Below are positions 5,883 through 59,883 of a stretch of DNA of 64,000 nucleotides, one piece after another. A model generated the notes under the pieces. That model had not been told where the DNA came from. It saw only the letters and a list, made by a program, of their open reading frames with translations, and did not search any database. Both the position numbers and the translations under genes were made by a program. Numbering within the stretch: position 1 is the stretch's first letter; every line of letters starts with the position of its first letter. The DNA is from Loxodes magnus (Eukaryota > Ciliophora > Karyorelictea > Loxodida > Loxodidae): NCBI GenBank assembly GCA_946699065.1, contig CAMPDV010000876.1, positions 62,001-126,000 on the forward strand, given 5' to 3'.

Positions 5883-5884
5883 TT

Positions 5885-8120: not shown

Positions 8121-8127
8121 ATAAAAA

Positions 8128-9552: not shown

Positions 9553-11052
9553 ATGAAACGGTAGAGGTAGGAAAATCCTAACATTCAAGAAGAGTAATAG
9601 CAAATATAAGAAACTGAAAGTATAAACACAGAGAAAAGATAAAAAACATCTAGTACACATATAAATTGTTTGCCAATCTATATTATAGAAAACATATTTT
9701 CATACTTAAAGTTGTGAGAAATATGTAAAATAGATATGGTTTAAAGAAAATGATAAAATGTTAAAATTTAATCAATTTAAATGGATGATTATTAAATATT
9801 TTTTTGCATTTAACGCTAACTGTAAGAAGAAAGAAGTCAGAAGGTTGAAGAAAATATAAAAACATAATTTTTTCAAAGTGTTAAATTAAACTTCAATAAA
9901 ATAGTTAGACATAATCCTTCAATTCTTAATATTAGCTTAATAAAAACAGGGTAGATATAATAAGATCGAGAAGAAAATGAAGTAATTAAAAACTAAATAA
10001 AAGAAACATTAGCTTACTTAATTGAAATACTCTAAAAAGAAAATAAACATAAATAAAATAATAAAGCATAATAATAATAAAATACTTATGGAAAACAAAT
10101 AGTAAAACTTACTTTAAAAGGTGTTTGCTGAAATAACTACATTGGATAAATCCTAAAAACTTGCACTTACTTGTAGAATTTAAAGCTAGATGAGTGTAAT
10201 ATTGAAGAAATAAATTTGAAGCAATTATAATAATTATAGTATCTAAAATATATTTCATTAGATTCAAACTGAAAAAATAAAATAAAAGGAGATATTCTAA
10301 AATTTAATAATCAATGATCTCTTTAGAGTATTTCTTTCTATTATACCCCTATTAAAAACATTCAATTTTTAATAGACTATTTAACCTAAAAGAGATAAGG
10401 TCTTTAGAAATTAAGATTTAGCATTTAAGATTTAAGTTAAGAATAACTTATTAAATTATTAGAAAAGTGTCATAATCTTAATAATATATAAATTGATGGT
10501 CTTCTTCAAGATAATTATAATTGATTGAGTTATATAGGATAGAATTATAAAAATTTGTAATGTTTATCTTTCGAATAATTCAGATTAGGTAAATAGCATT
10601 TTATAGACTTTTTTAAAGTTAACATTTCTAAAATACAAAAGCTTAATTTTATTTTCTGTTTTTAAATAGATTTATAAGTTATATAACTTTTGGTATAAAA
10701 TTAGAAACATTTAGAATCGCTTATTTTAAACTCATGTCAAGGAATAAACGAAGAGTGTATTTAATACATTTTTGAAAATAATAGAAGTTTAAAATATTTA
10801 AAATTAAGCAGTTTGTAATTTAAAAAAGATAAAATTAAAATAAAAGATAGTGAAGGTAAGTTCTATGAATTTTGAAATAAAATGAAGCTGCTCTAAATTA
10901 CTTACTGTGATTTTGAAGACAAGAAATAAATATAAGATCAAATATAAGAGTTAAAAAATAGGTTTCCCTTTTTAAAAATAGAATTAATTTAAGACTTTAA
11001 ATTGTTCTTTAATACATTAAAGTTATAATCAGTCTTAATACATAATTTTTGA
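9553..11052 (+). CDS. F-box/leucine-rich-repeat protein 1
   Basis: A single 499-codon frame from ATG 9553 to TGA 11050, open only if TAA/TAG are Gln and internal TGA is Trp. After a Gln-rich N terminus comes an F-box (residues about 42-70: INCLPIYIIENIFSYL ... DMVQRK, TGA at codon 67, QNV); the TGA is at the invariant Trp of the motif. The rest is irregular LRRs such as LQNLKLDECNIEEINL and LESLILNSCQGINEECI. F-box/LRR proteins typically bind Skp1 in SCF ubiquitin ligases and select substrates with the LRRs; that role is inferred from the family. Paralogues: 14001-15458 (minus) and 26269-27864 (plus). No frameshift over 1.5 kb implies recent selection. The stop is chosen because similarity to the paralogues ends there and TAA TAA follows. 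Confidence 0.8.
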
Positions 11053-14000: not shown

Positions 14001-15458
14001 TCATTTTATCAATTACTTAAATTAAAAATTTTTATCTACTTTCAGTAAGGGAAACTTATTACTTAACTCTTCTATCTGTTCTTCCCATTCGTTAGTAGTA
14101 TAATTAATTTCAAAATCGCATAAAAAGATTTAGAGGATTTTTAAATTGCTTCAGAAAATATAGAAATTGCCTTCATTATCTTTCATATTTATTTTCTCCT
14201 TGCTAAAATACAAACTGATCAGCTTTAACTCTTTTAAGGTTCTATTGTTTTGAAAAATATATTCAATACACTCTTCATCTATTGCTTTACAGTATTCTAA
14301 AGTTAGTGATTCTAGATGCCTCTAATTTTATATAATAAGCTACATAACTTATAAATTAATTTGATCACATTACTACAATTTTAGCTTTTGTATTTTAGAA
14401 GCGTTAACTTGAAAAAAAGCTATAAAATGCTATTGCTCACATCAAATATTTTCTAAAGCTAAAGATGTTAGATTTTTAAAATTCTATCCTATATAATTTA
14501 AACATTAACCGTTTTTATTGAAATCCTTACTAATAGTTAATTTATATATATTCTGACATTTTTCAAATAGCTGAATAAGTTATTCCTATCTTAATAATCA
14601 AAATGTTAGTCTTAACTTCTAAAGATCTTATCCCTTTTTAGTTAAGTAGTCTATTAAAAATTGAATGTTATTAATTTTGCTGTTATAGAAAGAAATACTT
14701 TGAAGAGAGCATTTATTTCTAAACTTTATAATATTTCCTATTATTGCCTTGCTATAATTTGAGTCCAATGAGAAGTGCTTTAGATATTATAGCTTATATA
14801 AGTTTTTCAGATTCAATTCATAAATGTCGCAATTATCTAGTTTTAAATATTATAAGTTAGTACAAGCTTTCAAAATCTATCCAATGTAGTTATTTAAGCA
14901 CTTTCCTTTTAAAGTAAATTTAGTTATTTGCTTTCCATAAGTAATAGGTTCTTTTTTTTGTGTACTAGTTTATTTAAATTGCTTTTGTTTTAATAGAATT
15001 TCAATTAAATAATCCAATGTTTCCCTTATTTTACTTTAAACTACTTCTTTTTCTATAGTCTCTTTAAGTAACTTAGTTGTATTTAGTAGATTAATAGTTA
15101 AAGTGTTAGGATTATGCTATACTATTTAATCGAATTTCATCTTTACACTTTAATAAAATTTAGTTACCATTATTTATAAAGTTTCATTAGTTTCCTTTTT
15201 GGGCATATTATGCTTAAATAATTATAAGTCATCAATTTCAATACTATTTATTCTAACGTTTTATCATTTCTTCTAAACTTAATTACTCTTGCATACTTCT
15301 CTATAGCTTAAGTATGAAAATATATTTTCTATAATATACATTGATAAACTATTTATATGTGTCATAGATCATTTCTATCTTTTCTCTAAGGCTTACATTT
15401 CTTATATTTGCTATTGCTCTTCTTCAATTTCTCCATTTTCCTATCTCTATCGTTTCAT
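14001..15458 (-). CDS. F-box/leucine-rich-repeat protein 2
   Basis: Minus-strand frame of 485 codons from ATG 15458 to TGA 14001-14003, without frameshift. It starts MKRQRQENGEIEEEQQQ like its paralogues. The F-box (MYIIENIFSYLSYREVCK) is followed by QKK, a TGA at codon 65 (15264-15266) and QNVR, so the F-box Trp is again TGA. LRR units follow (LQYLKLDNCDIYELNL, LQKLRLTF, LESLTLEYCKAIDEECI). A late FW is TGA in all three paralogues (NFYIF, TGA, SNLK). It is more diverged from copies 1 and 3 than they are from each other and lacks their conserved leader. Probable SCF substrate adaptor. Confidence 0.8.
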
Positions 15459-16722: not shown

Positions 16723-17134
16723 TAAAATACTATAATAATGATTTCATATTAATAAATTTGGCAATGTGAACTACCAAATTTAACATTGATTTTATAATAT
16801 AATGTATTAATTAAATTTTAGTAAGTAACTATGTGATTAAAAATATTAAATTTACAAATAATAAAGAATAAATAAAACTAAATGAAATATAGATAATATA
16901 AAATATAATTTTTAATATTATAACTAAAGTAAATAGTAAAAGGAGCTTATTAAATGGAGATTTAATAAATAAGAACATTTTTTTACTATAAGGAAATAAA
17001 AACAAAAATAAAATTACCTTAGAGGTTTGCTTAGCAGATTTAGAATAAAGAAAAATTTTATTTGTAACTTCTTCAGTTCAAGAAGGAATAAGAGTATATA
17101 AATAGAAGAAGAAATCAATTTAATAAAAATGTTA

Positions 17135-17395
17135 ATGAAATGAAATTATTGATATGAATCAATTACTTCATTTTAATTATACTCATTAAGTTTAGGCATC
17201 GTTCTTTTCATCTTCCAAATAATCTCCATTGCTTCTTGTACTTTCTTGCTGTTAATCTTTAGTCTGTCATTTACAAATATACAATTTTAAAATCTTAATG
17301 AGATTCAATATTAACTATTGGTTTTAAAGTGAATATTTTTCGAATATCTCTCAAATAAATGTTTGAAATAAGTGTCTCTAACTGAGACTCTATAA
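17135..17395 (-). pseudogene. Unidentified coding-like fragment
   Basis: On the minus strand two overlapping frames give protein-like sequence: first ESQLETLISNIYLRDIRKIF, then after a one-base shift a stretch with IFVNDRLKINSKKVQEAMEI and KMKRTMPKLNEYNQNEV. GC content is higher than in the flanks. The family was not recognised; it is probably a remnant of a decayed gene. Confidence 0.3.
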
Positions 17396-17399
17396 AGAA

Positions 17400-18440
17400 T
17401 TTGTATTAAATAGTATTAAAAAATAATAAGATTTGAGAATTATAATAAGGGAAGAAAATAATAATATATATGTAACTATATAAGAAGTAATTTAAATAAT
17501 AAAACCTAGCTACAAACTTATGCTTTAATATTATGATTCTTTCAATAAAATATAATTATCATATAATAAATCAATATTATAATGCTTTCTAATAGAAAAT
17601 TAAATATTTATATTAAATTATACTTTTTCAAACTTCTTAGCAATGATAGCTCAAGGCTGCAAAATATGTTTAAAATATCAACAAAACTAATTAAAAATAA
17701 CCAAATATTTATTAAAATGCAAATATCATAAATAGTAATATGAATAAAAAAGTAAAGGAGAGTATTGGAAACTTAATAATAAAATAGTTTTTCTATTTTG
17801 ATTTATAGAAATCCTTGCTAATTTTTAAATAAACAACTTTAGAAAAGGATTTCTAATTATTTCCATTGAAAGTAAACTTATTTTAACCTAATAAACTTTA
17901 TTTTTATTTAATTATAGGAGAAACACTAGAAATCATTAAGAGATATGAAAAAAGGCAAAATAAGCCTTTAATTTATAAATTAATTAATTGCTTAAATATA
18001 TTCGTTAATATGTTATAAAATATTATAAAAAGTAAAAAATGTATAATTTTTGCTGATAAGCAGATAGGAAATAAAAATAGTTGCATTTTATATAGCATAA
18101 TTTCTTAAAAAGAGAAATATACAGGTATTTTGGCTAGAAAATTTAGGAATTTAAAGGAAATAATAATTATAATTGTTCTAATATTTATAAAGAATCTGTA
18201 AAATTAAAATAATCTCGTTACCATTAATTAGTTTCTTATTGGTAAAAAGAGTTTCTTTATAAAAAATGTCAAAAATAATAAAATTTAGTTGATATCTATC
18301 TTTAAATTAATTAGTACTATAAAGATCTTTTATTAAGCTAATTTATTTACAAATAATTAATTATTTATTGAAAAATTCTTACTAAAAATATTAAGAATTC
18401 AATAATATTAGAATAGTGAAAACATTTTAAGCTGTTTATT
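17400..18440. other. AT-rich DNA, no gene recognised
   Basis: AT-rich spacer without a recognisable gene or repeat. Confidence 0.4.
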
Positions 18441-18443
18441 ATA

Positions 18444-19190
18444 CAAATTATAACTTATAATCCTAAAATTAAAAAATAAGTAATAAGACCAATTAAAGTA
18501 AAAAATCTAATCATAAAACATAAAGTCATGCATGATACAACGGAGATCGAAGAATTTAATTAAAATGTTTATTGAGGATAGAAGTCTAAATACAATAAAG
18601 AAAAAATAACATAAAAAATGTACTGATTCTGTAGAATACTTGGAAATTTCAAAAAATCTTAAAGGAAATATAAAATTTTTTTGTTAAATGAAAGCACAAA
18701 ATTCTGAAAATTCCTAACCAAGATTTATTAATATCTGAAAGCGAATTATATAGTAAAAAATACTCAAAGTAAACAAAGAAGTTCCCTATATCTAATAGGT
18801 AAATAATGGATTAAATATAAAATTATTGGGATTTTATATATAGGAATAAATTAAGAAAAGTAATCTTAAAATAGTCAAGATTCATGATAATGAAGATCCA
18901 ATAAATTCGAAATCTATATATTTTTAAATACTGAACGCTTTAATTGTGGTGATTTTACAAAGTGGTACCTCGTTAATTAATTATTATTATTTCATTTATC
19001 TCTCGGATAATTAACAATATAGTCAATTCCCAACTGAGATTTAGACTTATATTTTTTGATAATGATTCTATGCGTGAAATTGGACCTTGCTTGAATAAAA
19101 TTAACTTACTAATTCCGTATATTTAGCAAATTTCGTGATTGACTCGAAATTTATTAGTTTTATATTCAATTTAATTTTTTTTAAATCTAA
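18444..19190 (+). pseudogene. Possible ISXO2/IS1595-type DDE transposase remnant
   Basis: With TGA as Trp this strand stays open and protein-like for about 245 codons. Features that fit the ISXO2-like DDE domain: TEIEEF (family EIDE, first catalytic Asp replaced by Glu), GQKSKYNKEK (family G.RKYNRGR), YWFCRILGN (family W.FG), KIFLLNESTKFWKFL (family FLVPV..R...TL), and NSQDSWQWRSNKF (family HTQ.IES.WR..K). The central D and the NHS box are not clear, so an active enzyme is unlikely. No terminal inverted repeats were located. The assignment is by eye; an unrelated protein remains possible. Confidence 0.35.
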
Positions 19191-19194
19191 CAAT

Positions 19195-20480
19195 CCCCAA
19201 TTTTTCATATTACCTGTTAGTATTTAATTTAACTTAATTAACAATCATAATAATTATATATTTTAGATTAAGAAAATTAACAAAAGGTTAATATAGATAA
19301 TTACTTTAATGCTAAAATATAAAAGCTAATTAGACCAAAAATTAAATAAACGAATACTACAAAGAATTAACTTTTTAGTTAAACAAAATATTTTCTAATA
19401 AAAAATTAAAAAATAAACTAATTTAATAAATATTAAAATGTGCTATTAATAAACCATATTAAAATAGTGGATGCAGTTATTTTAAATCCATAAGGAAAGC
19501 CTTACATATTTATTAAAAAATTAATAAACTTTCTAGAAAAAAAATGTAATGTTTTGGTAAATTTGCTTATGTTTTTATAAAAAGAATAACATTTAATTCA
19601 TCAAAAATATAATTAAAAAAGTTGGATTTTTCATGAAAAGTACAAAATAATACTTATATTGATTAGGAATTGAAAATTAAATAAATAGATAATATTACCT
19701 AAGAATCCAGAAAATATTATAAAAAACAGAAAATTTCATAAAAGAAATAATTAATTTACCAAAATATAAAAAGAAATATAAAGGTGTATTTTTCTAATAA
19801 ACAAAAATTAAGCATTTTTAATTAAATAAATGCATTAAATATTAATATTAAAAGAAACGTAAATTTCTAAAATTCTGTTGCATTTTAAGAGTAAAAATTA
19901 AATTTAGATTATCTAATATAAGAATTCAAGAAACTATTTAGTTATAATAAGCATTAAAAAATCGAATGCACCTTTAGCTTAAATTAAGATAAAAATAAAA
20001 ATTATGATTAAAGTAATAATTATTCTATTTTAGCACTGCTATGCTAAAAAATATATTTCTGGCAGTATAGCAAAATAAAGTAGTTGAAGATATTATTATT
20101 CTTTTAGGTTTAATGAATATTTTTAATTTTATTTATAATATGAAATGATTATAAAGATGAAATAAAATTAGTAAAAGTAAGTATACTTTAATTATTATAT
20201 TTAAATAATATTATCAGAATTATACTTTATAGTAAAACCATATATTATAAGATAAAAAATTGATAAAACTTTAAAAATTTACATAATAAATAAAAGACTT
20301 CCTATAGGTAATATTTTAATTATCTTTCAATTTTTATGACTTATATTCATTTCCTTTTATGAGTTTAAAATAATTTTAAAAGAATCAAGAAACCAAAGTT
20401 TAGGATTATTTTATGAAACTTAAATTTTAGAAATAACTCAAAAAAAGAGTTTCAGAATTTATTGAAATAATTAAAATTAT
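19195..20480. other. AT-rich DNA, no gene recognised
   Basis: Low-complexity AT-rich spacer with no gene or repeat recognised. Confidence 0.4.
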
Positions 20481-20482
20481 AT

Positions 20483-20537
20483 TACGATAAAAATTAGCCA
20501 ATGAAATACGATAAAAATTAGCCAATGAAATACGATA
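20483..20537. repeat. 24-bp tandem duplication
   Basis: The 24-base unit ACGATAAAAATTAGCC + AATGAAAT occurs twice without a mismatch and is followed by a partial third copy (ACGATA). It is a small, recent tandem duplication in AT-rich DNA. Confidence 0.8.
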
Positions 20538-20984
20538 ATAAAAAACTAAACTTTTCCCAAAAATAGATTTAACTAATTTTTATTAGTTTGTACTACAGAC
20601 TCATCACAAAGAATGAACATTCCAAAGTATTATAAAAAATGTCATAATTTATAAGTTCTTTAATTGAATTATGTCATGAATATAAATTGAAAATTACGAT
20701 ATTAATAATTCTTTTAGCAGACATCATTATGATAACTTTCAAAAATTTTGGTAATATTATCGAGTAAAAGATGGACTTATTAACTCTATGAATTTCCCAT
20801 GTATAAAAAAATGTAATAGAATATTATAGCTTTAAAAAAGTTTCTATGTGTTTTAGTTAAACGTGGATACAACGATACTTCAAATGAGTTAGTAGAAGTC
20901 AAAATTTTGCAAAAATAATTGAATTAAAAAAATAAAAAAAGAGAATTCACGTTAATTTATTATTATTATAAAATTTAATTTAAA

Positions 20985-21057
20985 TAGGGAGAAGCAATCC
21001 TCACGCTGAGACATCTTAATCAATTGAGGTGCTACGTGCTCTATAATATAAGATTTT
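20985..21057 (+). mobile_element. Internally deleted family B element
   Basis: A family B head (AAATAGGGAGAAGCAATCCTC) is joined almost directly to the family tail (AATTGAGGTGCTACGTGCTCTATAATA). It lacks roughly 250 bp of the body and half of the tail hairpin. This is a deletion derivative or template-switch product. Confidence 0.65.
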
Positions 21058-21059
21058 TT

Positions 21060-22419
21060 TAAGTTTGAGCAAAATTCTCATTTGAAAAGGATTCATCTCA
21101 GCCAAATTACAGTTAGAAAATTATACTTAAAGAACTCAAAAATAAGTAAGAGAAAAATATTTAACTTTTAAGATAAATGCAAGAGCTCAAAGGAAAATTC
21201 CACAATCTTATTTCTGAATCTTAAGAATTAAAAAAAATGAAAATGGAAATTCATCAAATACGAGAATCGAACAGTTAGAAACAAAGTTCAATTAATTCGC
21301 GGAGTTGACGGAAAACATATTTCTTTAAAATATTATCGATGAATGATCATATTGATGTAAAATCTAAATATTAACCAGAAAATTCCTTTATGTAGGATAA
21401 ATCGATTACGATATTTCCAGAAAATGATTCTTATTATAAAATACTGCAAACATTTTAAATGAAAACAAATTAAGAATAGTTTAAATTATTGGCAATTAAT
21501 TAGTAATTTATATTGCACTCCAAATGAGATGTCATAAAGAAAGTAAATATATAGAAGGAGTGAAATTATGAGAGATATAGTATTTGTGCAATAAAGAAGG
21601 AATAATAAAATTATGTACCGTAAGCTTTACTTAAGCAGGATTAAAATAATAAAAAAGGGTTAAATTAACAAAAATAGATATTTTTTAAAGGAAAGCAATT
21701 AAGACAAAGAATGGGAATTCAAAATTTGACGAAAAAAGTAAACTTAAATTCAGTGATAATTTATATTGGAATCACTATAATTAATTATTATTATATTATA
21801 ATTAAATAAATGTTCTTAATTTAAAGTCTATTTTATTTATAATGTATTAATAAATAATTTTTAGTTTTATGATCTAAAAAGTAATAAAATATGAATTAAT
21901 AATAATTTTTTATTTAAATTTTAAATTTAAGATATACTAATTTTTCTTATGTACTATTGGAAACTTATTTTATATTATTAATTTTATTTTAATTTTTTAC
22001 TATATAATATTCTTAATTTTCAAGAGTAATATCTTTTATCTTTTTTTGTATTTTATAATTTTATTTTATAATAAAAAGCTACTTAAACAAAGTTATGTAA
22101 ATAGTAAAATATAAACTTATTAAATCTTAAATTACCATACATTAAAACTAAATTTTAAAATTATATATAATAGTAAAATAAATCATTAAACTTATTTTTA
22201 TATCATCTAAAATTAAATAAATATCAATATCAAATTTTATTCTTATAATAATAAATTTACTTAAGTAGTAAAAATACTTTCAATAAATATGATTCTTGCA
22301 TTATAAATTGTTCAATAAAGTAATATCATAAGATCCAACATATATAGAAATAATCAACAAATTTAAGGATATAATTTAATAATGTAATAAATAAATAAAT
22401 TATAAAAAGAGTAGAATAA
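21060..22419. other. AT-rich DNA, no gene recognised
   Basis: The first 700 bp are Lys/Glu-codon-rich on the plus strand and might be a decayed coding region, but no stable frame could be followed. The rest is plain AT-rich spacer. Confidence 0.3.
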
Positions 22420-22420
22420 A

Positions 22421-23230
22421 ATGGATTAATCTCTTCGACTCTCAAAAAATTAACTTAGAAACCTAAAGAGAAAAGCGGCAAAAGAAATTTAGAAAAAATA
22501 ATAACAATAGGAGGAGTCAAGCTCTTCTTCAGAAGGTAAAGTTATGGTAGGATAAATAGAGATAAGTTAACCTAAAAACGAAACTAATAAAAAACTTTAA
22601 ATTTAATTAGACCAAATGTAAAAAGTAATCTCAAATTATGAAGAAACAACCTACAACTTAGGCGAAAAAATACGGGAACTAATGAGTAACATAGAAGATT
22701 AGAACAACGAATTACTAATACTTAGAAGATAACTTATTTGTAGCAAATTAATAACGGAAGAATAACTCTGAACTTAATCATAATAAAATTTTAAATACGA
22801 CACAAAAATGGAAATAGAAAAAATACCAATAGAATTAAAAACAGAATTGAATCCAGAAAAAGAAATGATTGCTACAAGTTTCATTAAAAGATTAGAAAAT
22901 ATAGAAAATAAATTATCATAAAAAAGAACGAAATAAAGACAATAATACAAACTTTGTTGATGTTGCAAATCAAATCAACATATTTTAAAAAACTGTTGAT
23001 AGTGAAAGAAAATAAACGAATAAGAGCAGAAAAGAACATGGAGACAACTCAATAAACTATGAATAACTCCAACAGGGATCTACAAATAAAAGCTTTTTGC
23101 AAGACCACTTGAACGGTTGCAGTGGTAACCTTCCACTTAATAAAAAGGTCGTGGATCACACCCACGTTAAAAAAGCTGTCCGCAGGAACTGGTTGCAATT
23201 CCAGAGAATGCAAAACTCTACTAACTTTAA
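22421..23230 (+). CDS. LINE ORF1-like protein with CCHC zinc knuckle
   Basis: From ATG 22421 the plus strand encodes a Gln/Lys-rich protein with a serine run (EESSSSSEG), a coiled-coil region (GEKIRELMSNIEDQNNELL) and a knuckle C-(TGA)-CCKSNQHILKNC near codon 188, spaced CX2CX4HX4C with TGA at the aromatic position. A TGIYKQK motif follows, equivalent to GGQIYKPK of the 5 kb copy. Internal TGAs fit Trp. The 3' part (23050-23220) is GC-richer and ends in an ATT/ATAA simple-repeat tail, as expected for a LINE 3' end. The stop was not determined. RNA-binding ORF1 role inferred from the family. Confidence 0.65.
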
Positions 23231-23270
23231 GTATATTATTATTATTATTATAAATAAATAAATTATATAA
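23231..23270. repeat. ATT/ATAA simple repeat
   Basis: A run of ATT units followed by ATAAATAAATAAATT directly after the LINE ORF1 region; it looks like the 3' tail of that element. Confidence 0.6.
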
Positions 23271-23439
23271 ACTAGTTGCATTTTCATGATTTGACTGTAT
23301 TGTAACCTTGATATATCTTATAATAGCAGTTATGAATAAAAACTGCTGAATATTTAAATGAAAGGAATGAAGTAAGAAATAGAAGATTATTTTTCGAATC
23401 AGATTAAACATAATAGCAAAAACTAAAAAGCAAAATATT

Positions 23440-23755
23440 AATTAATTAATTTCAACTATAAGAGCTTTTGGACTGGAAACTCCTTTCCAATTTCACGACC
23501 AGACGCTCTCTTTTTAAAGAATAACGGAAATATCCTGTTGTGCTCCAGACAAAACTGCTAGGGAGCTCCACCACTATGAGCAGCCAGGCTTAAAGCCCCT
23601 ACCAAGAGCGGATAATCTCAAAGACAACATTCCCTTCAGAAAATGGCTCGGACTAGAGATTTTCTCAGCGACAGGAAAGGAACTTGTTCCTAGCTATAAA
23701 ACCAGAAAATGTGGTCAAGAAGGCCAATATCAACTCACACAATCTTTTCATTTAT
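23440..23755 (+). mobile_element. SINE-like element, family F, copy 1
   Basis: Element of about 315 bp flanked by a perfect 17-bp direct repeat, CTAAAAAGCAAAATATT, at 23423-23439 and 23756-23772. It begins AATTTCAACTA, then a hairpin TGGAAA-CTCC-TTTCCA, and carries the landmarks ATCCTGTTGTGCTCCAGAC, TATGAGCAGCCAGGC, CCTACCAAGAGCGGATAATC and GGAACTTGTTCC. Copies at 34.1 and 40.3 kb share all of these. It is non-coding and lacks the bulged tail of families A-D. The long, variable-sequence duplication indicates target-primed reverse transcription. GGCTTAAAGCCC is only a weak resemblance to a pol III B box. Confidence 0.85.
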
Positions 23756-24119
23756 CTAAAAAGCAAAATATTTTGTGGATTTTTATACATCTTTTGATTT
23801 GCTTAAATAGAAATAATAAAGATGTCAATTATGTTGCTTGTAAATTAAAATATCATAACCTACTTTCTGATTTTTATTTATTTTAAGGAATTAATTAATC
23901 TAGTCAAAAAGAATAAAACATTTATTAAAAGGATAAAATTTATCAAATTTTATGTTTAAATTCTCATAATGGCATATTATATTACTATGAAACATATATA
24001 TTATTATTTATTTTAAGGTAATATGCAAAGAAAGTAAATTAAATATAATTTAATATGTTGTACTTATAATAAATCAATTTATTTAATTATATTAGATAAA
24101 TTAATTAATTAAAAAATCA

Positions 24120-24442
24120 ATAAATTGGGTTATAGAGCGTGTAGCACTCTAGAAGGTGCGCAACCTTTAAATTAATTTTATTTATTGTTAATAAAAATTT
24201 TCATTAAAAGCTTCCTCCAGTGTCACTCCCTTGGAAATTCTGTTTTTTAATAGGGCATGGTCGGAGATATGCCCTAAGAGATCTAATTGTCTGGTGTCTT
24301 TCATCAACCGTTACTCAATGCCTCCAGTTCTTTCCTACTTGGCTCCTGCCAAGCTTCTTGATCAGTTCTTCGCTCTTGAAGTATTTCCTAGTACTTGAAT
24401 TTAAGTTAAAATTAGTTGGAGGATCTCTCCTCCCTATTTAAA
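24120..24442 (-). mobile_element. SINE-like element, family B, copy 2
   Basis: Reverse-complement family B unit. It starts at 24442 with AAATA and a perfect 6-bp hairpin GGAGGA-GAGA-TCCTCC, passes through GATGAAAGACACCAG and ATCTCTTAGGGCAT, and ends in the bulged hairpin at about 24130-24170 with AAAT tail. It is diverged from the other B copies in its middle, but the terminal hairpins are kept. Confidence 0.75.
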
Positions 24443-24548
24443 ATAACTATTAGATATATAAAATTGATAATTTAAAAATGTGAAATAAGATGTATTTTCT
24501 ATTTATTATTATGGAAACTAACAGTCATTTTATTAAATATATATAAAA

Positions 24549-24965
24549 TGGATGTCAGCCGCGTCAGTCAAACTAGTAGGTAATCTGGTGCAATGTATAC
24601 TGCATTGCGAGTAATCTCGCACTAGATGCCACCACGGGGAAGGGTGTATAAGCTCTGTTGAGATGTACCTAACTTACCCTGAGGGTTCTCTCTAGCAGTA
24701 TGAAAGTTTGACTGACGGGCCTTCTAATTATCGACTTAATAACTATCTATTATTTGGACCTTATTCAAGAAGACTGAAGCATTTGACTCAAGATTTTAGA
24801 ATAATTTTTAATAAGAAGATTCTCCATTTGGAGAAGCTGACATAACTCATCGGACATCTAGAATTTAACAAGAAACATGAGAACATTTTTAAATATTAAA
24901 TATTAATATTGAAAGAGCTGCGCGCCAATGAGATGCTACGCGCTCTATAATTATTTATTTATTTA
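24549..24965 (+). mobile_element. SINE-like element, family A, copy 2
   Basis: The best-preserved A copy, about 415 bp, from ATGGATGTCAGCCGCG to the hairpin tail (AAAGAGCTGCGCGCC ... TGCTACGCGCTC) and ATTTATTTATTTATT. Positions about 24564-24575 (GTCAGTCAAACT) and 24704-24715 (AGTTTGACTGAC) form a 12-bp perfect inverted repeat. Inside it lie GCAATG...CATTGC and GCGAG-TAAT-CTCGC hairpins, suggesting a branched RNA head. No protein frame. Shares its tail with the LINE at 55-57 kb. Confidence 0.85.
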
Positions 24966-24969
24966 TTAT

Positions 24970-26178
24970 TGATTTAACTGTATTTATAGAGTAAAGATAG
25001 ATATAATGTAATATAGTATAATTAAATAATGTGATATAAATATATTATTCAATATTAATTGTTTAAATAGTTAGTAATTTTTATAATTATACTATAATAA
25101 TATAATTTAACTAAATATTCTTTCAATTATTTTAGTTTAGTTAAATTTATGAATATTTATTGTATTAACATTTCCTAATATTTAATTTATTTTATTTCTA
25201 AATATATTAATTATTAATATTTAGCATCAGCATAATATTCTTATTTTTATATATTTATACAACTTTCTAAGCTTTTAACTTTAATTACTATTTATATAGA
25301 AACTATTTTCCTAGCTATAAACATTATAGTTTATCTACATTTTTATCTTTTAGATATATTTTTTAAATGCTTAATATTTAAGCTTTATATTTTATGCGCA
25401 TTTTTTCAATTATATTTTTACTTTTCTCGAAGGAATTAAACTCTTTATAATTTTTTAAGGAAGGAGTAAAGTTTGAATGTAAATGAATCAGTTTCATTAT
25501 AATATTTTACTAGTAAATAAGAAAAATATAAATAATACAAAATGCTAATTAAATAAAAGGATATCGAGTAGTTAGTCTCAAATCAAGCGAATCTTGCTTT
25601 TAAGTTGATAAAATTATATTTTATTTTAAATTAACTCTCCTTTAGTTAAATCGTTATAACCATAATATGAAAGAAATTTATAGTATAAATTAATAAAGGT
25701 TTTATTTCTCAAATTTGAATCACAATTCTCTGCTTGGTTTTAAGGTGATTTAACAATTTTCTATATTAATATACATGTCTCATTACCCTTGGAGATAGAA
25801 AAATCCTTTTCGTATTCCTTCTAATATAAGTTTACATTTTTGTTAAAACATTGCAGGATTTAAAATTTTGCTTTTATATGTCTAATATTTTAACTTAATT
25901 AAGCTTTACAAATTAGTTTCTAGGTAATCAGTTTGTATGTTAATTAAAAATATTTTAAAATAAATATATTTTAATTTATTAAAAGGATGAATGGCTTTTA
26001 ATGAGTTGATTATTTAATAATTTTATTAGTGATAGAATATGCTAAATTTTAATTAATCTTATTAATAGAAATTTAAAATTATTTTATCTTTTACTTAATT
26101 ATTGAGACTAAATAAAGAATACTCTATGTATCTTTATTAGATTAGGCATCTAATTATTTACCTTAGTTTATCAAATCA
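24970..26178. other. AT-rich DNA, no gene recognised
   Basis: AT-rich spacer upstream of the third F-box/LRR gene; nothing recognised until the duplicated leader at 26180. Confidence 0.4.
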
Positions 26179-26179
26179 A

Positions 26180-26268
26180 TTTATAGGACTCTAACATTAT
26201 TTTTATGCTAATGATATTAAAACGAATCATTTATGCTTATAAACCACTAAAAATCTAATTATTATAAA
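26180..26268 (+). promoter_or_regulatory. Duplicated 5' flank of F-box/LRR gene 3
   Basis: Matches 9465-9552 almost base for base, marking the left part of the duplicated block and a conserved leader directly before the ATG. No core-promoter motif is claimed. Confidence 0.5.
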
Positions 26269-27864
26269 ATGAAACGGTAGAGGTAGGAAAATCCTAACAT
26301 TCAAGAAGAGCTATATGGAAATTAAGAATTCCAAGATTATAACATAGAGAAAAGATAAAAAACATCTAGTACACATATAAATTGTTTGCCAATCTATATT
26401 ATAGAAAACATATTTTCATACTTAAAGCTTAGAGAAGTATGCAAAGTTGATTTGGTTTAAAGAAAATGATAAAATGTTAAAATTAATTATTTTGAAATAA
26501 ATGATAATTTCATGTTTTATTTAGTTAAGAGATAATTGTAAGTGGAAGGAAGTCAAAGGGTCGAAGAAAATACTATAGCTTAATTTTTTCAAAGTGTAAA
26601 ATTAACTTTCAATAAAATAGTTAGACATAATCCTTCGATTCTGAATATTAGCTTAATAAAAACAGGATAGATATAATAAGATCGAAAAGAAAATGAAATA
26701 ATTCAAAACTAAATAAAAGAAGCATTATCTTATTTAATTGAAATACTCTAAAAAGAAAATAATAAAACAAAATAATAGTATAATACTTATGGGAAATAAA
26801 TAGCCAAACTTACTTTAAAAGGTGCTTGTTGAAATAACTACATTGGATAGATTCTACAAACTTGCACTTACTTATAATATTTAAAATTAGATAATTGTGA
26901 TATCGAAGAAATAAATTTAAAAGACTTATAACAATTATAAAATCTAATTTACTTCTCATTAGATTGAAATTATAAAAAGGAAATTATAGGAAATATTCTA
27001 AAATTTAATAATCAATGATCTATCCAAAGTATTTCTTTCTTTTAGAGCAATATTGCTAATGTTAAATTTTTAATAGACTACTTAACTTTGAAAGGACAGT
27101 ATCTTTAGAAGTTAAAACTTAGTGTTTATAAATTAAGTTAAGAATAACTTATTCAGTTATTAGAGAAATGTAATAATCTAAATAAACTGTAAATTGATAC
27201 TGCTCTATATGATAATTATCGCTGATTGAAATATATAGGACAAAATTTTAAAAATCTTAGAAGTTTGTCGTTCGATTTTATTAGATGCGAAAACTAGCAC
27301 TTTATAGAATTTTTTTAATCAAACATTTCTAAAATAAGAAAGCTAAAGTTTAAATAATGTAATAAAATTGATTTATAAGTAATTTAAATTTTACTATAAA
27401 CTCAAAAGCATCTAGAATCACTTATTCTAGACTCATGTAAAGAAATAAATGAAGATTGCTTAGTATAAATTTTTAAAAATAATAGAAGCTTAAAATAGTT
27501 AAAGATACTTTTTTTAAAATTTAAAAAAGAGTAATTAAGTTTAAAAGATAATGAAGGTAATTATTATCAATTTTGAAATCATTTGAAACTGTTTCAAATT
27601 TTTTGCTGCGATTTTAAAAATGAGTCAAATGCAATAGAAATGAAAGTTCAAATAGAAGAGCTAAAAAATAAGTTTCCCTTACTAAAAGTTAAAGCAGATT
27701 AAGATTTTTTACATTAATAAACTTAAATAGATTTTAATTTAATGTCTAATTTTTCTTAATTATATGATAAATCAGTTTATATAAATTAAATCTAATCAAA
27801 ACTATAAGAAATATCATCTAAAATTACTAAAAATTAGAGACTTAAGAATCTTTAATGCTATTGA
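26269..27864 (+). CDS. F-box/leucine-rich-repeat protein 3
   Basis: Frame of 531 codons from ATG 26269. The first ~65 codons are almost identical to gene 1 (F-box INCLPIYIIENIFSYL, Trp as TGA at codon 67, 26467-26469). TGA also occupies shared positions in AC-W-NNY (26830), NNQ-W-S, NYR-W-LKY and QF-W-NH. LRR units include LQYLKLDNCDIEEINL and LESLILDSCKEINEDCL. The similarity to gene 1 falls off after codon ~480; TGA 27862-27864 is the chosen stop but an earlier end is possible. The strong conservation of the F-box with diverging LRRs fits adaptors that keep Skp1 binding and change targets (family inference). Confidence 0.75.
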
Positions 27865-27869
27865 TTTAG

Positions 27870-28710
27870 TTTATTAATTACTTGAGTATAAATATTTAAG
27901 ACAATATTCTGTAGAAAATACCTCTACTAGTGTTTTAAATAAATTGAGGTAAGATGAGTAATCAATTTTAAGAAATAATTAATAATTAGTCTCATGTATT
28001 GAAAACTAATAAATTTAAAAATATATTTAATTAGAATATGAATAGTCAATTTTGCTTAAAGATATTTTATATTTAATCTAATCTTAAAGTTACCTAAAAA
28101 ATACAATAATAGCTTAGATAAAATATTTGAATTTAGTTATAGCTATCAGTTATTATAACTTTTTTATGTATAAATTTACAATTTTTCATTAATTTTACTT
28201 CACAATATTTACTCTAATTTTAGGAGATAAAGTAATTTATCTAAGATTTTTATACTTCAATTCTTGCATTTGATATTAAACAATAAATATATATTTATAT
28301 AATGATGATTAAATAAAATAGATATTTAAATAAATTTTAAAAAGAAATTAAAAATTTCTAAATTATAATCCATATGTATAATTTATCGTCTTATAATATA
28401 TGAGTTTATACAGAAATAACTATAAATGTATAAGTAATAATTGAGAGATATTGAATAAAATAATTTTTTGCTTTAATTAAATTTTTTTTAAAATTATATT
28501 TATCATAATTCCTTTTTGAATTTTTTTGCAGAAAACTAAATTTTTTTAATGGATTTTCAGTTATAAAAATTTAAGCCTAATATATACCCATTCAAACAAG
28601 TAGTTCTTTTTAAAGTTTAACTAGGAAAACTAACTTTGACTTAAGATTCTATATACTAATACAGAATTATATTAAAATTTAGAAAAAACTTTATTTTATT
28701 AAATTACATA
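27870..28710. other. AT-rich DNA, no gene recognised
   Basis: AT-rich spacer between F-box gene 3 and a LINE ORF1. The first 200 bp may still hold decayed C-terminal sequence of the F-box gene; otherwise nothing recognised. Confidence 0.35.
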
Positions 28711-28714
28711 TAAA

Positions 28715-29452
28715 ATGGCTTCTAAGAAATAACAGAACTTTGAACAAAACATTTAAACAGGAAAATTCTCTAAAAAATAAAAAAACGAAATAGTTACAAT
28801 GAGTGAAAGTGAGAAATATGATTGATATGACGAACATTAACCACTTGGAAATCCAGAATTAAAAAAACTTCTGACACAAACTCAAATAGAAATATTATCT
28901 AAGTCATTAAAAGATTTTATGTTTAAAAATAGATACCTCACTAATAAAGTAGAAAAATTAGAAAAACTAATAACATCTTTACTTGAGAAACAATATTAAT
29001 AATCACAAGAAATAGAAAACAAACTGGAACAAAGAATTCTTTAAATTTAATAATAAATTCAGGTAACGCCATTTTCGATTTAACAGAATTAATCAGATCC
29101 TATGGAAATAGAAAATGAAGCCTCAAATTAAAATAAACAGTAAACGTTTATTTAAAATAAGTAGTAAATTTAAATTAAATAAGTGTTACAGGAATAATAG
29201 TTTAAAAGAAGAATAAAATGCTACGTGTGCAATAAATAACACCAATGAAAATACTGCTACTAACTAAGCGAAATTTAAAGAAAGAATAAATAAGATATTT
29301 TTAGAAAACTATTTAGGATATATCCAACATAAAGCGGAAAAATTTATAGAAAAAAATTCTTTAATTCAAATCTTAATCCTTGGAGAAATAATTATGAACG
29401 CTAAGTGCAAGACCAAAACTATTCAGAATATTAAAGGATGGTGCGCTAATGA
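28715..29452 (+). CDS. LINE ORF1-like protein with zinc knuckle
   Basis: ATG 28715 to TGA 29450-29452, 245 codons, in frame throughout with two internal TGAs read as Trp. Starts MASKKQQNFEQN; a coiled coil (YLTNKVEKLEKLITSLLEKQ) precedes a Gln-rich linker with PMEIENEAS and the knuckle CYVCNKQHQ-(TGA)-KYC, spaced CX2CX3HX4C. SGKIYRKKF follows, the same downstream motif as in the other copies. The end of the frame runs into a degenerate form of the shared hairpin tail (GGTGCGCTAATGAAGTGCTACACCGCC, positions 29439-29465), tying ORF1 elements to the SINE tail. Probably the RNA-binding ORF1 protein of a non-LTR element. Confidence 0.7.
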
Positions 29453-29589
29453 AGTGCTACACCGCCTAACTAAGCCTAGTAGAAATTAAAGACAAACTAA
29501 TGGAGACAAGCTGATAGAATAGGTCAGATGGCTGACTACTAAGGCTTTAACAAAGCTTTTTAATTTTTTAACTTTATGTAAAATTAAGT

Positions 29590-30840
29590 ATATGAAAAAA
29601 GACATCCAGCACTTGCCAAAATAAAATCTTTTAGTCAGTCTTTTTAGAAAAAAGGAAAGGCAAAATAAATCAATTTAAGTTTTAAAGAGGATGTGGATTA
29701 AGTTATTTAAATAGATATTTGGTAAGAAAGTCAAATTTATGAGATATTACAACAAATCATATAAGAGTTTGAATCAAATTTTAGATAAATAAAAGTATGG
29801 TTGACTAAAAAATAAATCTTAGAATTAGATTATTTAACTTATCCTCATCAGATTGAAATAAATTCTTGGTTCAATAAAGAAAATTATTCACTTATGAATA
29901 CTCCTAATAAACATTTTTAAATCTTAGTCCAACTTTGAAAATAAAACAGTTGAAAGATACTTAGAACGAGTAAACATTCAAGATTTGAAGATTAAGTTCC
30001 TGGTTATTAAAAGAATTAAATTATTTAAAAGATTTCAACATCTAAAAAATCCAATCTATTAGCAATAATCGATTGCAGAAATAGTTCTATGAGGCAATCC
30101 AGGTATAGGTGCTCAAAATAAAAAGAATCTGTACGATTAAGAATAAAAATATCAACAAAGTAAGCTAGAAAAATCAAAACTTTGATAAGCTGAATGGCAC
30201 TATAACTTTTTTAAGTATAATTATTTAAAATATCATAAAATAAGCAATGTTTAGTCTTTTAAAGTTAAAATGCAAGCAATTTTTTTAAATAGGAGATAAT
30301 TAGAATTAACAAAGAGCAGATTTAAAAGCCAGTGCTGAATCTGCAAACTTTCTAGAAGATTATCTTATTAAAATCTTAAAATTTGAATTTTAAACTTACT
30401 AGCAAAAAGATGATATTTGAAACGAAGGAGTGCTATATGGGTAATTTTAGTTAAATGGTGTTTAAAAAGGTAAAAATTTAAAAATTTAAAAGAAGAAATT
30501 GCAACATTTATTTATATGATACGTTAAATCCATAGCTTCATTTATACATAAAAAATAACTAAGAGATTTATTAATTTGCTTAAGTTTAAAATTATTATAA
30601 TTATATTTCTTTTTGTAAAGAAGAAGGGATTTTAAAAAGTTAATTAGCAATCAATTATAAAGCACAAAAATCTCTTATAATGAAGCAAAATCAAGTTGCA
30701 ACTCCAAAATATTATAATTTCTTTAGGACATTATCTAAGAGAATTGCTAATATCGATTTTTCTTAATACAAGCTTTTAATTATATAATCAAAGTCTAATT
30801 TAAATGGGATAACAAGCAAATGTTTTATAGACGAAACTTT
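29590..30840 (+). pseudogene. Unidentified decayed gene with several frameshifts
   Basis: Three successive frames give clear protein-like segments. The first holds EDVDQVIQIDIWQESQIYEI and WLTKKQILELDYLTYPHQIE (about 29690-29920); the second FENKTVERYLERVNIQDLKI and EIVL-W(TGA)-GNPGIGAQNKKN (about 29935-30230); the third DTLNPQLHLYIKN and CKEEGILKSQLAINYKAQKS (about 30510-30760). At least two indels separate them. I do not recognise the family; a transposon protein is one possibility. It converges on the 3' end of the GNAT gene. Confidence 0.4.
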
Positions 30841-31669
30841 TTTTGCTATAAAATTATTATTTATGATTGAGTTAACAATTTCTTTGCATAGAACTAGATT
30901 AAATAATTCCTTTATAATAAATTTAATTTAATTTAATTTAATTTTTAAATTACTCCTGAAAACTCTCACGAATTTCTTTAAGCGATTTCTTTTGGTTTCC
31001 ATTCTCATCAAAATTTCCTTCATCAAGCCAAACCTCAAAGGATTTTTTAACCCTTGGCCATTCTTTATCAATAATAGAAAACCAGGCAGTATCTCGTGAT
31101 CTTTCCTTGTAAACCACAGCTTATCTGAAAATGCCTTCGAATTTGAAGCCAAGTCTAATTGCTGCTGCTTTTGAAGGTTTATTAAGACTATCACATTTTC
31201 ATTCGTACCGTCTATATCCAAGTTCATCGAAAGCTCTTTACATAAGTAAATATTGAGATTCTGTTGCAGCTCTTGTCTACTGCAATAGTTTAGTGAAAAG
31301 AATATGACCAACTTCAATCACGCCAAAATTTACATCTATTCGTAGATAGGACATTACACCAACAGCACGTCCACTTTTCAAATCGATTACTGCATGGTAA
31401 AGTGGGTCATTACTTTAAGAGCACTATTAAACGAAAGAAATATATTCTTATTTATCATGAAAAGGTCCAGAAAAAAGATAAGTGAAGTTTTTATCGTCGG
31501 GAGATTGATGTATTGCATCATAAAGATCTGATGCATGATCCACCGATAGAGGTTCAATCCTGCAATAACGACCTGTTAGAGCACTTCGTGGTGGCCACTA
31601 CCGTGGAGTCCATCCTGGTACGTCTTCCCCTATAGGTTGACCATATTAATTTAATCTCTAAGCTATCAT
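30788..31669 (-). CDS. GNAT-family N-acetyltransferase (RimJ/RimL-like)
   Basis: Starts at ATG 31669 ([20 protein letters not shown]). Family landmarks follow in order: [56 protein letters not shown] (acetyl-CoA-binding core), [25 protein letters not shown]-(TGA)-[26 protein letters not shown] and [16 protein letters not shown] at 31199-31201 (codon 157) is the conserved Trp and TAA at 31121-31123 (codon 183) the conserved Gln. Such enzymes transfer acetyl groups to small molecules or protein N termini; the substrate here is unknown. GC content exceeds the flanks. Conserved sequence ends near 30953, where a TAA occurs at the usual family end; the first in-frame TGA is 30788-30790, giving a 54-residue AT-rich extension. 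Confidence 0.9.
30918..30948. repeat. AATTT microsatellite
   Basis: About five consecutive AATTT units just after the conserved end of the acetyltransferase; it lies inside the AT-rich extension if that is translated. Confidence 0.7.
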
Positions 31670-31671
31670 GT

Positions 31672-32152
31672 TAATTTTTAAGATTATAAACTAAATATAC
31701 CAAAGTTAAAATATATCAAGTTTATATATTCGTTATAATATCTAAACAAGGTCTTATCTAATAAAAACGATATATTAAGCTATTTATTTTTTGAAAAAAA
31801 AATTTACATTATATAAAACAAATGGAAACTCTATTTCTTCTTTTTGAAGTAGTCGAAATATTAAAAACTTATCAAGAAAAATTATAAAAAACTTAATTAA
31901 AAGTTTAAACTTTTAACTAAAAATAAATAAATTAATCTTAAGAAATTTTAGAAAAAATAAAAATAATAAATAGAAATTGCATTAAAGCTAATTAACTTTA
32001 TAACCATATCTTTATAGAACTAAAATTAAAATTAGCTATTGTACCTAAATATAAAAACATAATAAAATGTTTTGTATTTATTTTACAAAAATTAAAAAAT
32101 TTATTTTTTAGTAAAAGAAATAAAAAATTTAAATCGTCTCAATAAATTTGCT
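31672..32152. other. AT-rich DNA, no gene recognised
   Basis: Upstream of the minus-strand acetyltransferase gene, so its promoter should lie here, but no motif stands out from the AT-rich background. Confidence 0.4.
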
Positions 32153-32154
32153 AA

Positions 32155-32590
32155 AATTAAAAAATTTAATAAATAAATAAAAATTATTATAGAGCGTGTA
32201 GCACCTCGATGGCGCGCAGCTCTTTCAATATTAATATTTAATATTTAAAAATGTTCTCATGATTCTTGTTAAATTCTAGAGGTCCGATGAGTTATGTCAG
32301 CTTCTAAAAATGGGGAATCTTCCTATTAAAAATTATTCTAAAATCTTGAGTCAAATGCTTCAGTCTTCATGAATAAGGTCCAAGTAAGAGATAGTTATTA
32401 AGTCGGTAATTAGAAGGCCTGTCAGTCAAACTTTCATACTGCTAGGGAGAACCCTTGGGGTAAGTTAGGTACGTCTCAACAGAGCTTATACACCCTTCCC
32501 CGTGGTGGCATCTAGTGCGAGATTACTCGCAATGCAGTATACATTGCACCAGATTACCTACTAGTTTGACTGACGCGGCCGACATCCATT
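32155..32590 (-). mobile_element. SINE-like element, family A, copy 3
   Basis: Reverse-complement counterpart of the 24.55 kb copy, with the same head (ending GACGCGGCCGACATCCAT on the plus strand), the 12-bp inverted repeat (TGTCAGTCAAACT and AGTTTGACTGAC), a GCGAG/CTCGC hairpin, and the bulged tail at about 32183-32222. The two copies are closely similar over about 150 bp of the head and more diverged in the central part. Non-coding. Confidence 0.85.
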
Positions 32591-39772: not shown

Positions 39773-40300
39773 ATGGCACCTAAGAAATATATTTCTTCCA
39801 TAAAATCCAGAATATCTTAGCTAGATACTACAGATGAACTATACTTTTTGTAGTTAGAGATAAAAAAACTAAAAACAGTAAGTGATCTAAGCCGATAAAC
39901 TGAGAATTTGATGATATCCATTAATCTACTTATAAATGAAAATAAAATTATAAGACAAGAAATAAACTGGATTACTCTATCTTAATAAATATTACTGTAA
40001 ATTAATGCAATTTAAAATAGCCTAAAAAAAATGCAAATTTAAAGATATTTTGGATTGGAGTAAACCTAACTAAGTGAAGTAATAATCCAAGATAATTGAT
40101 CAATATCTTTTCACCGAAATCCTAAAATTTTAGTAGAAAAATAATGAGGTGCTGATACTGCAAATGTAAAGGGCATATGGTAAGATAATGCTTTGAATTT
40201 CTCTAAAAAAAGAAAAATAGGAAAAATTATTTACATAATATGTTTGAGATATATTGATTATCGAACGGAAAACTCTAAAGTGTCGTAATAAACTTATACT
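39773..40300 (+). pseudogene. LINE ORF1-like copy with one frameshift
   Basis: ATG 39773 opens MAPKKYISSIKSRISQLD, with a helical region (YFLQLEIKKLKTVSDL; INLLINENKIIRQEINW). The knuckle RC-W(TGA)-YCKCKGHMVRQC, a perfect CX2CX4HX4C, lies in the next frame at about 40143-40187, so a one-base indel lies between (near the AAAAATAATGAGG run at 40138). The start MAPKK resembles MASKK of the 28.7 kb copy. Immediately downstream a SINE-F copy is inserted. Confidence 0.6.
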
Positions 40301-57575: not shown

Positions 57576-59883
57576 ATGGATAGCAATCAATGTCCAAACT
57601 GTAAAAAGCAATTCGATTAAGAAGAGAGATTATATAAACGATTACCATGTGGTTGTATTTCATGTTTGAATTGTCTTAAAACTATATATTAGTTTACTTA
57701 AAAAATTGAATGCATAAAGCACTAGCAAGTTTATTACATACAGCCTGAATAGTTATAAGGATAAGTTAATTAACTTCGAGTTAATTAAGAAGTACCAACA
57801 AATTAATAGTTTTAATCTGTTGAATAAGTACAGATGAATGAATAAAAAAAATGGTTACAGGGATTTTAGATTCAAAAATAAAATTACCATAATATGATAA
57901 AAGAACTTGTATAGGATAGTTCTCAATTTATGCAGACAATCTAGGTCTTATCGTTTCAGTAGATACTAAAGATTTTAACGGATTAAATTTCAGGTACAAA
58001 TAATAAGATCAAGAATTTACTTTAGCGTCTGACTAAGCTTCAAGTACCAAATTAATTTTAGTAATAGCCAATGGGTTAATAATAATAAAATCTAAGACAG
58101 AATAGTTAATAAGAACTTAATTCAATTTTACAAGAGATAGCTGAGTTAAGAAGAAGTTAGAGTCAGCAAATGAACATAACAATTCTAAGAAATATTATCT
58201 AGTCAAGTATATTCAAAGTATTCAGTTATTTAAGTTAGAATTCTAATGGCTAGCAATTAACTTTGAACGAGGCGTAGTAAATAATATAAAACTATTTCAA
58301 GTAAGTCAATGTAGTGAATGAGATTTGTTAAGTAGCAACTATTGCAATATAACCAGAAGTTTAAATCTAAGCTTAAATTCAAGAGTAAAAAATAGTGAGC
58401 AAATATGCATTATATGATTTCGCAAATTTATCATTAAGCAAGCTAAATCAGTTGTTGAATCAGATAAAAGATGAGAATCTCAATGTAATAATGTTGAAGT
58501 AAAGTCCTTTAAGCAAGCCAGGATTAATTGAATAAGGATAAATTTTGTTGCAATTACCTTAAGTAACTGACTAACTAATTCATAAAAAGTTGTTTTAGAT
58601 AGTTTAGTTATGTAAGTCTCAACAAGGAGTATCTTAAATAGCCTCTAACGCCTTAACAATGTTGAACTTCATGAACTTCGCATTCACGTAATAAAACTTC
58701 CAGAACACTGAATTAAATAACTCTGATTTATCTGACACCACCTTCACAAACTGCAATTTAGCTAACTCCAATCTAACATCAGCTAACCTAAGAAACTCTA
58801 AATTCATCAACTGTGACCTCTCCAACACCAACCTAACCTAAATCTCCACTGAACACCCTCAAGTTTTCACTGGACACTCTGATCGTGTCACATCGGTTGC
58901 CATCTCCTCAGATGCTAATTTAATCCTTTCTGGTTCTCTTGACAAAACTCTAAGACTCTACAACATAGCCACAGGTACCTGTAAGACCATGAGTGGTCAC
59001 ACTAGTCATGTATATGCTGTGGCTATATCCAGTGATTCAGAGTTCATCGTATCGGGAAGTTATGATTATACGGTGAGACTATGGGACGTCAAGACAGGTA
59101 CCTGTAAGACCATGAGTGGTCACACTAGTTTTGTATATGCTGTGGCTATATCCAGTGATTCAGAGTTCATTGTATCGGGAAGTTGATGATTAGACGGTGA
59201 GACTATGGGACGTCAAGACAGGTACCTGTAAGACCATGAGTGGTCACACACATTATGTATCAGCTGTGGCTATATCCAGTGATTCAGAGTTTATCGTATC
59301 GGGAAGTCATGATACTACTCTTAGACTTTACAATATCAAGACAGCTACCTGTAAGACCATGAGTGGTCACACTAGTTCTGTATATGCTGTGGCTATATCC
59401 AGTGATTCCAGCTTAATCATATCTGGATCGGATGACAAAACAATTCGTTTATGGAACTCAAGAACATAATAATGTACGCTGGTCTTATCGGGTCACACAT
59501 CTTCTGTCTATTCGGTAATATTCTCAAATAACAACAAGTATATCTTATCTGGATCTAAGGACAAGACAATAAGAATATGAAATATCTCTAATGGATAGTG
59601 TATCTGTGTACTATTGGGTCATACGGACCCAGTGAAGAGTTTATCATTATCTAGTGACAACAATTGATTAGTATCGAGTAACTAAAGTGCATTCTATTCA
59701 GCCTAATCAAAAGACTACAACATTCGAAGATGGAACTTAGGAAGGCTATTGAATAGTGAATAAACAACTAACTAGTAATAGGTAAGTTTAAATCTACAAT
59801 AATTATATAGACTGACTGGAGCAAAGTATATGCTGACTATGGATTAAGATTTAACAATTGTGTAATGGCTAATACTATAATGA
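57576..59883 (+). CDS. RING-like zinc-binding / pentapeptide / WD40 repeat protein
   Basis: ATG 57576 to TGA 59881-59883, about 768 residues. Domains: treble-clef-like Cys cluster at residues 6-33 (CPNCKK ... LPCGCISCLNCL), a Gln-rich helical region (about 60-330), pentapeptide repeats (about 380-425: NNSDLSDTTFTNCNLANSNL), then seven or so WD40 units (MSGHTSHVYAVAISSDSEF, VRLWDVKTGTC). A one-base insertion at about 59185 (GGAAGTTGATGATTAG against GGAAGTTATGATTAT) breaks the frame in the third unit; reading resumes at 59197. TGA 59578-59580 stands at the Trp of IRI-W-NIS, TGA 59665-59667 at NN-W-LVSS. Likely a propeller scaffold, perhaps an E3-type ubiquitin ligase. The indel is a pseudogene mutation or an assembly error. 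Confidence 0.8.
58978..59470 (+). repeat. Near-identical 123-bp WD40 coding repeats
   Basis: CCTGTAAGACCATGAGTGGT recurs at 58978, 59101, 59225 and 59348, spaced 123, 124 and 123 bases: a 41-codon WD unit copied almost without change, apart from the single-base insertion in the third interval. The third base of codons is also conserved, showing recent duplication or gene conversion. Confidence 0.85.

Follow-up and report, generated by a model that had tools for sequence, protein, structure and literature searches.

Evidence from a 64-kb window of the Loxodes magnus genome for TGA as a tryptophan codon and TAA/TAG as glutamine codons inside genes

The window, by which we mean the whole 64-kb stretch of DNA that was analysed (contig C876:62001-126000), comes from an assembly of 705,730,643 bases in 7,843 contigs and has a GC content of about 22% (AT about 78%). 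The macronuclear assembly of Loxodes magnus is described as 706 Mbp long, with abundant LINEs and low-complexity tandem repeats and a coding-sequence GC of 33.5% (PMC11441545). The window, which carries LINE-like stretches and an 89-base satellite, has the same repeat character. The satellite occupies positions 62589-64000 and continues through much of the following 10 kb of the contig. Two recent segmental duplications were also found on this contig, pairing window positions 23223-32203 with positions 706-9706 of the stretch L018 (98.7% identity) and positions 15602-22077 with the stretch L017 (95.7% identity).

Clear protein signals in the window come from one GNAT acetyltransferase gene, a trio of F-box/LRR copies and one WD40 gene. 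Under table 11, no reading frame of at least 150 codons was present anywhere in the window. Few families emerged from a Pfam scan of the six frames that covered most of the window, and the matches to UBR4 and EarA were taken as low-complexity matches. Coding-potential segmentation yielded weak candidates, many of them LINE-like; these came from a second segmenter, the first having missed even the known genes. The window gave no match to Rfam at the gathering score and no match in viral-contig scans, and no tRNA genes were found in it or in ten further stretches of the same contig.

The bacterial-type GNAT acetyltransferase gene (239 codons) lies at 30953..31669 on the minus strand, with its ATG at 31669, and was recognised by protein matches, an alignment-column test and the Pfam family PF13302, matched at E 1.3e-11 when the six frames were scanned. 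Identity to its best matches is about 61%, and those of the listed matches that carry a name are mostly betaproteobacterial (Achromobacter, Bordetella, Delftia), so that the gene looks bacterial in origin judging from its sequence. It contains six TAA, four TAG, one TGA and five TGG codons. When these were compared with the best 120 of 7,998 matches, the TGA (codon 157, 31199..31201, minus strand) fell on the invariant Trp of the YEWKCD block, a column with Trp in 120/120 aligned relatives, as the preliminary description of this DNA had proposed. The same column composition was seen for four of the five TGG codons, while the fifth lies in a variable column. A TAA that had been assigned to a conserved Gln is codon 183, and this column proved to be Gln in 106/120 relatives. 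The remaining nine TAA/TAG codons occupy variable columns in which Gln ranks among the six most frequent residues but never first (n=120).

An alternative to a sense reading of TGA is the ciliate code of table 6, in which UAA and UAG encode Gln and UGA is a stop only; the TGAs would then be nonsense codons in pseudogenes, lying at Trp positions because TGG mutates easily to TGA. The single TGA of the GNAT gene could on its own be recent decay, but three copies of the gene were found on the contig (in the window, L009 and L018), and all of them keep the in-frame TGA; the two extra copies are about 99% identical.

More was learned about this alternative from the three F-box/LRR genes, each of which is followed by TAA: F1 at 9553..10989 (plus strand; 479 codons, seven TGA, no TGG), F2 at 14025..15458 (minus strand; 478 codons, five TGA, one TGG) and F3 at 26269..27699 (plus strand; 477 codons, six TGA, no TGG). 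In-frame TGA thus makes up 18 of 1,434 codons, at a TGA:TGG ratio of 18:1, compared with 1:5 in the GNAT gene. All three copies have TGA at the F-box Trp (9751-9753, 15264-15266 and 26467-26469), where the aligned residue of FBXW11 is Trp in a weak match (E = 1.1). A protein search with the F-box protein gave no match. The predicted structure of F3 consists of helix/strand repeats with a mean pLDDT of 58.6 (below 50 in the F-box part), and the best Foldseek matches of this model include complexes of FBXL2, FBXL17, COI1 and TIR1, with general LRR proteins such as ribonuclease inhibitor further down the list. The copies had been described as open for 1.46-1.6 kb; their frames are indeed open, but the length from ATG to the terminal TAA is slightly less, 1.43 kb. 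The positions given earlier for the TGAs of the GNAT gene (31199), the trio (9751, 15264, 26467) and the WD40 gene (59578) were all correct. One further F-box/LRR-like stretch of the contig (L012, plus strand) gives matches in two frames; this additional copy carries the same F-box TGA, with frame changes further on, and that TGA is also present in the fragment L013.

The trio can be aligned from ATG to TAA, and all pairwise indels in this interval (8/8) are multiples of three. Two columns before the TAA hold TGA in all three copies. In three more, F1 and F3 have TGA where F2 has Leu, Cys and Cys, which means that five TGAs are common to F1 and F3 (hypergeometric P = 4e-7, with 131 columns at most one step from TGA), in line with the shared TGAs noted earlier for these paralogues. 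Behind the shared F-box TGA (codon columns 67-482), the three pairs have dN/dS values of 0.35, 0.45 and 0.39, compared with means of 0.79-0.86 under a null that shuffled the substitutions of a single sequence 200 times per row; 0/200 shuffles were as low in each of the three pairs. In some short sub-intervals dN/dS did not stand out from the null, namely columns 0-66 and 441-482 for F1/F3 and 441-482 for F1/F2. Unless they arose twice, the common TGAs are older than the copies, and since selection has acted behind them from then on, they are sense codons.

A similar picture was obtained from the recent duplication of 23223-32203 in L018, where 0 gap columns were counted in 2,148 coding bases versus 40 in 6,833 other bases, and where the mismatch rate in the two genes is half that of the remainder. 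Counting against a sense reading, a recent F3 duplicate shows six nonsynonymous and three synonymous codon changes. Chance nonsense mutation, which the preliminary description had argued against, is excluded for the F-box family by the common TGAs, the frame-preserving indels and the dN/dS below the null, and with it pseudogene decay under table 6. What table 6 retains in its favour is that the WD40 gene is frameshifted, with its TGAs behind the frameshift, and that the eRF1 genes described below end in TGA and have none inside. The GNAT column, the selection on the trio and a MORN gene described below all show UGA used as sense, and we consider table 6 very improbable for this genome.

Which amino acid TGA stands for is a separate question, and the trio alone would not single out Trp, because its other TGAs correspond to Cys, Leu, Arg, Ser, Tyr, Gln or Thr: in addition to the columns given above, six have TGA in a single copy, opposite Thr, Arg, Ser, Tyr, Gln/Tyr and Arg, and no TGA-TGG exchange occurs in the trio. 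The meaning of TAA and TAG is clearer here. Their in-frame partners are Lys (26), CAA/CAG (20), Glu (14), Tyr (11) and TGA/TGG (1), compared with 2 and 10 for CAA/CAG and 22 and 14 for TGA/TGG off frame, which indicates that TAA/TAG behave like Gln and that TGA is not interchangeable with them. Together with GNAT codon 183 and the TAA/TAG codons inside eRF1, this enrichment of in-frame exchange with CAA/CAG shows TAA and TAG to be sense codons that fit Gln inside genes.

The Cys residues opposite TGA raise the possibility that UGA encodes Cys, as in Euplotes. Besides the two columns in which TGA of F1 and F3 faces Cys of F2, the L012 copy and the L013 fragment have TGA where the trio has Cys (aligned by eye). 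However, Cys is one mutation away from TGA, so exchange of Trp for Cys is to be expected, and a Cys reading conflicts with the GNAT column (Trp in 120/120), the WD40 Trp, the MORN gene and the F-box Trp. It is ruled out by the GNAT, WD40 and MORN positions, and its probability is the lowest of all the readings considered here, close to nil.

The WD40 evidence comes from a RING-like/pentapeptide/WD40 gene at 57576..59880 (plus strand), which runs for about 535 codons without TGA up to a one-base frameshift near 59182. Two TGAs lie behind the frameshift, and the gene ends in TAA-TGA at 59878. The earlier assignment of the TGA at 59578 to a WD40 Trp held in that it aligns with Trp, among the alignments listed that reach the position, but with the qualification that it stands behind the frameshift. 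The frameshift itself is a one-base insertion in 123-base repeats and may be a sequencing error, the mark of a pseudogene or a frameshift site; a short intron as its cause is ruled out by the tandem repeat spacing of 247 (2 x 123 + 1). Very large WD40 repeat arrays were also seen on contig C1503 (L001, L003 and L005), where the L001 unit has TGA at the x of GHTD-x-VRS and the L003 and L005 units have Ser.

TGA had further been reported at aromatic positions of four LINE zinc knuckles. By pattern count this stands for three, all on the plus strand: two in LINE ORF1-like stretches, at 22955..22996 (TGA at the second position) and 29219..29257 (TGA two residues past the His), and one in a LINE-like stretch at 40150..40191 (TGA at the second position). 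The fourth (5288, minus strand) has no TGA in the motif. The second position of the knuckles at 22955 and 40150 is Tyr or Phe in other knuckles.

A MORN gene on the same contig (L016, minus strand) has TGA at the aromatic position in 53/53 matched units, and a second pattern gave 43/43. The pattern fixes the neighbouring residues and leaves the counted residue free, so that only pattern-fitting units enter these counts, and the units are tandem copies rather than independent observations. The gene is long, with frame changes inside its repeat array. The contig also carries a leishmanolysin-type gene whose three TGAs line up with Phe, Ile and Phe of 1lml; these residues are hydrophobic, which is no proof of Trp. 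Elsewhere in the assembly, a Pelota-like gene has TGA beside KKA, where eRF1 has Leu. The consensus motifs used for the F-box, zinc knuckle, MORN, eRF1 and leishmanolysin are those that we take to be characteristic of these families. Overall, a Trp reading of TGA fits the GNAT column, the F-box Trp (weak match), the WD40 Trp, two knuckle positions and the MORN units as far as alignments can tell, and UGA as a sense codon for Trp inside genes is supported by the 120/120 GNAT column, the 53/53 matched MORN units and the selection on the trio.

We next considered where TGA acts as a stop. Two eRF1 copies were found on contig C196 (L019 and L020), each of 436 codons with no internal TGA and four TGG. 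They contain 13 TAA plus 7 TAG and 15 TAA plus 6 TAG (20 and 21 in total), and both end in TGA; GC is 0.33 ahead of the terminal TGA and 0.22-0.23 from it on. Both copies keep NIKS, with RAQ ahead of it whose Gln is encoded by TAA, and the motif YxCxxxF, which we take to be an eRF1 motif, reads FLCENTF. These ends, which represent one gene on one contig and are read from sequence only, indicate that UGA is also a stop, as published. The table 27-like code claimed in the preliminary description is therefore borne out: genes under selection use TGA internally for Trp and TAA/TAG for Gln, and TGA closes both eRF1 copies.

The trio and the GNAT gene present a different picture at their ends, since TAA, not TGA, stands where constraint or homology ends. 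In the GNAT gene, the TAA at 30950..30952 (minus strand) directly follows the conserved C-terminus, GC falls at this point, and the homologues stop near it, most of them within six residues (120 relatives). The next in-frame TGA past the TAA comes after 20 codons in F1, 7 in F2, 54 in F3 and 54 in GNAT. Behind the TAA, dN/dS in the trio rises to 1.17, 1.80 and 0.96, and the first indels of the three pairs, 4 to 23 bases on, measure 5, 11 and 5 bases. These indels, none of which is a multiple of three, sharpen the end of constraint without showing termination itself. All four genes have a GC of 0.13-0.14 over the 120 bases that begin with the TAA (0.13-0.15 when counted behind it).

Such ends raise the question of whether the code is of the Condylostoma type (table 28), in which each of the three codons is sense within genes and can also stop near the 3' end, with UAA ending the trio and GNAT. 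The end of constraint in the trio, the end of homology in GNAT and the GC drop in 4/4 genes are all in its favour, and so is a 5-base deletion just behind the TAA in one GNAT copy. Moreover, a search for GT-AG introns of 15-26 bases near the gene ends found none that brings a TGA into frame within 100 codons for F1 or GNAT. On the other side, the GC change points lie at -21 (F1), -2 (F3), -11 (F2) and 0 (GNAT) bases relative to the TAA but carry little weight for F1 and F3, where the log likelihood rises by 1.5 and 1.6, the GNAT deletion sits inside a short five-base repeat, and the dN/dS of 0.96 for F2/F3 (behind codon column 483) falls short of the mean of its own shuffles (1.74), with 11/200 shuffles as low. 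In addition, a TAA near a gene end may be chance, because TAA is frequent, and F1 has another TAA 15 codons ahead of its end. Both eRF1 copies end in TGA, UAG termination was seen at none of the six gene ends examined, and UGA is the sole stop according to the Loxodes paper (PMC11441545). Taken together, these points make a table 28 code unlikely. We lean towards the TAAs at the trio and GNAT ends being followed by unconstrained tails in which reading continues as far as a TGA, the behaviour expected under table 27, because the authors of the Loxodes paper, who worked from poly(A)-tailed transcripts, treated UGA as the sole stop (PMC11441545). A variant with UAA as an additional terminator of some genes, namely those of the low-GC F-box family and the bacterially derived GNAT, so that the code shades into the Condylostoma type, with UGA as the ordinary Trp codon in families such as F-box and MORN, seems to us doubtful, though a shade less so than table 28 itself.

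Our main reading, to which we give a probability of roughly 0.93, is that the window is nuclear DNA of a karyorelict ciliate, very probably of the L. magnus macronuclear assembly, and uses table 27, with UAA/UAG as Gln and UGA as Trp inside genes and UGA as a stop near the 3' end. UAA and UAG would be read by Gln tRNAs and UGA by a Trp tRNA, and termination may outcompete these tRNAs only near the poly(A) tail (PMC4967479, PMC11441545). Others have proposed a CCA tRNA with a 4-bp anticodon stem as the UGA reader in Loxodes (PMC12005148). Among our own scans, 10 loci out of 30 (from 63 genome tRNA matches) gave no Trp or Gln tRNA, only Lys and Ala tRNAs.

The same code, with TAA/TAG as Gln and TGA as Trp inside genes and as a stop at their ends, is reported for the karyorelicts L. 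magnus (PMC11441545) and Parduczia sp. (PMC4967479), and the repeat character of the window is likewise that of L. magnus (PMC11441545). The four genes with TAA where constraint or homology ends depart from table 27 as described, and the TGA usage reported for Parduczia is 0.120% (PMC4967479), versus 18 of 1,434 codons in the trio. Condylostoma magnum (table 28) shares the use of all three codons as sense inside genes, but all three terminate there (PMC4967479), whereas only TGA termination, in eRF1, is well supported here. Amoebophrya sp. ex Karlodinium veneficum also has all three stop codons inside frames, with Gln and Trp proposed, but it is a dinoflagellate relative with a genome of 127 Mb and 65.2% AT (PMC12005148), compared with about 78% AT in the window and an assembly of 706 Mb. 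Blastocrithidia resembles the present case in reading UGA as Trp and, if UAA also terminates here, in using UAA both as sense and as stop, but there UAA and UAG encode Glu (PMC12153298).

A code in which all three stop codons are sense inside genes is already published for L. magnus, with table 27 stated and UGA given as the only stop (PMC11441545), so the present analysis is of value as a confirmation obtained independently and from the sequence only. Few genetic codes allow a sense reading of every codon, and those that do bear on the recognition of termination. The points left for testing are UAA as the end of some Loxodes genes and UGA as the dominant Trp codon in some families, though not in GNAT; any novelty would lie in the gene ends at TAA alone.
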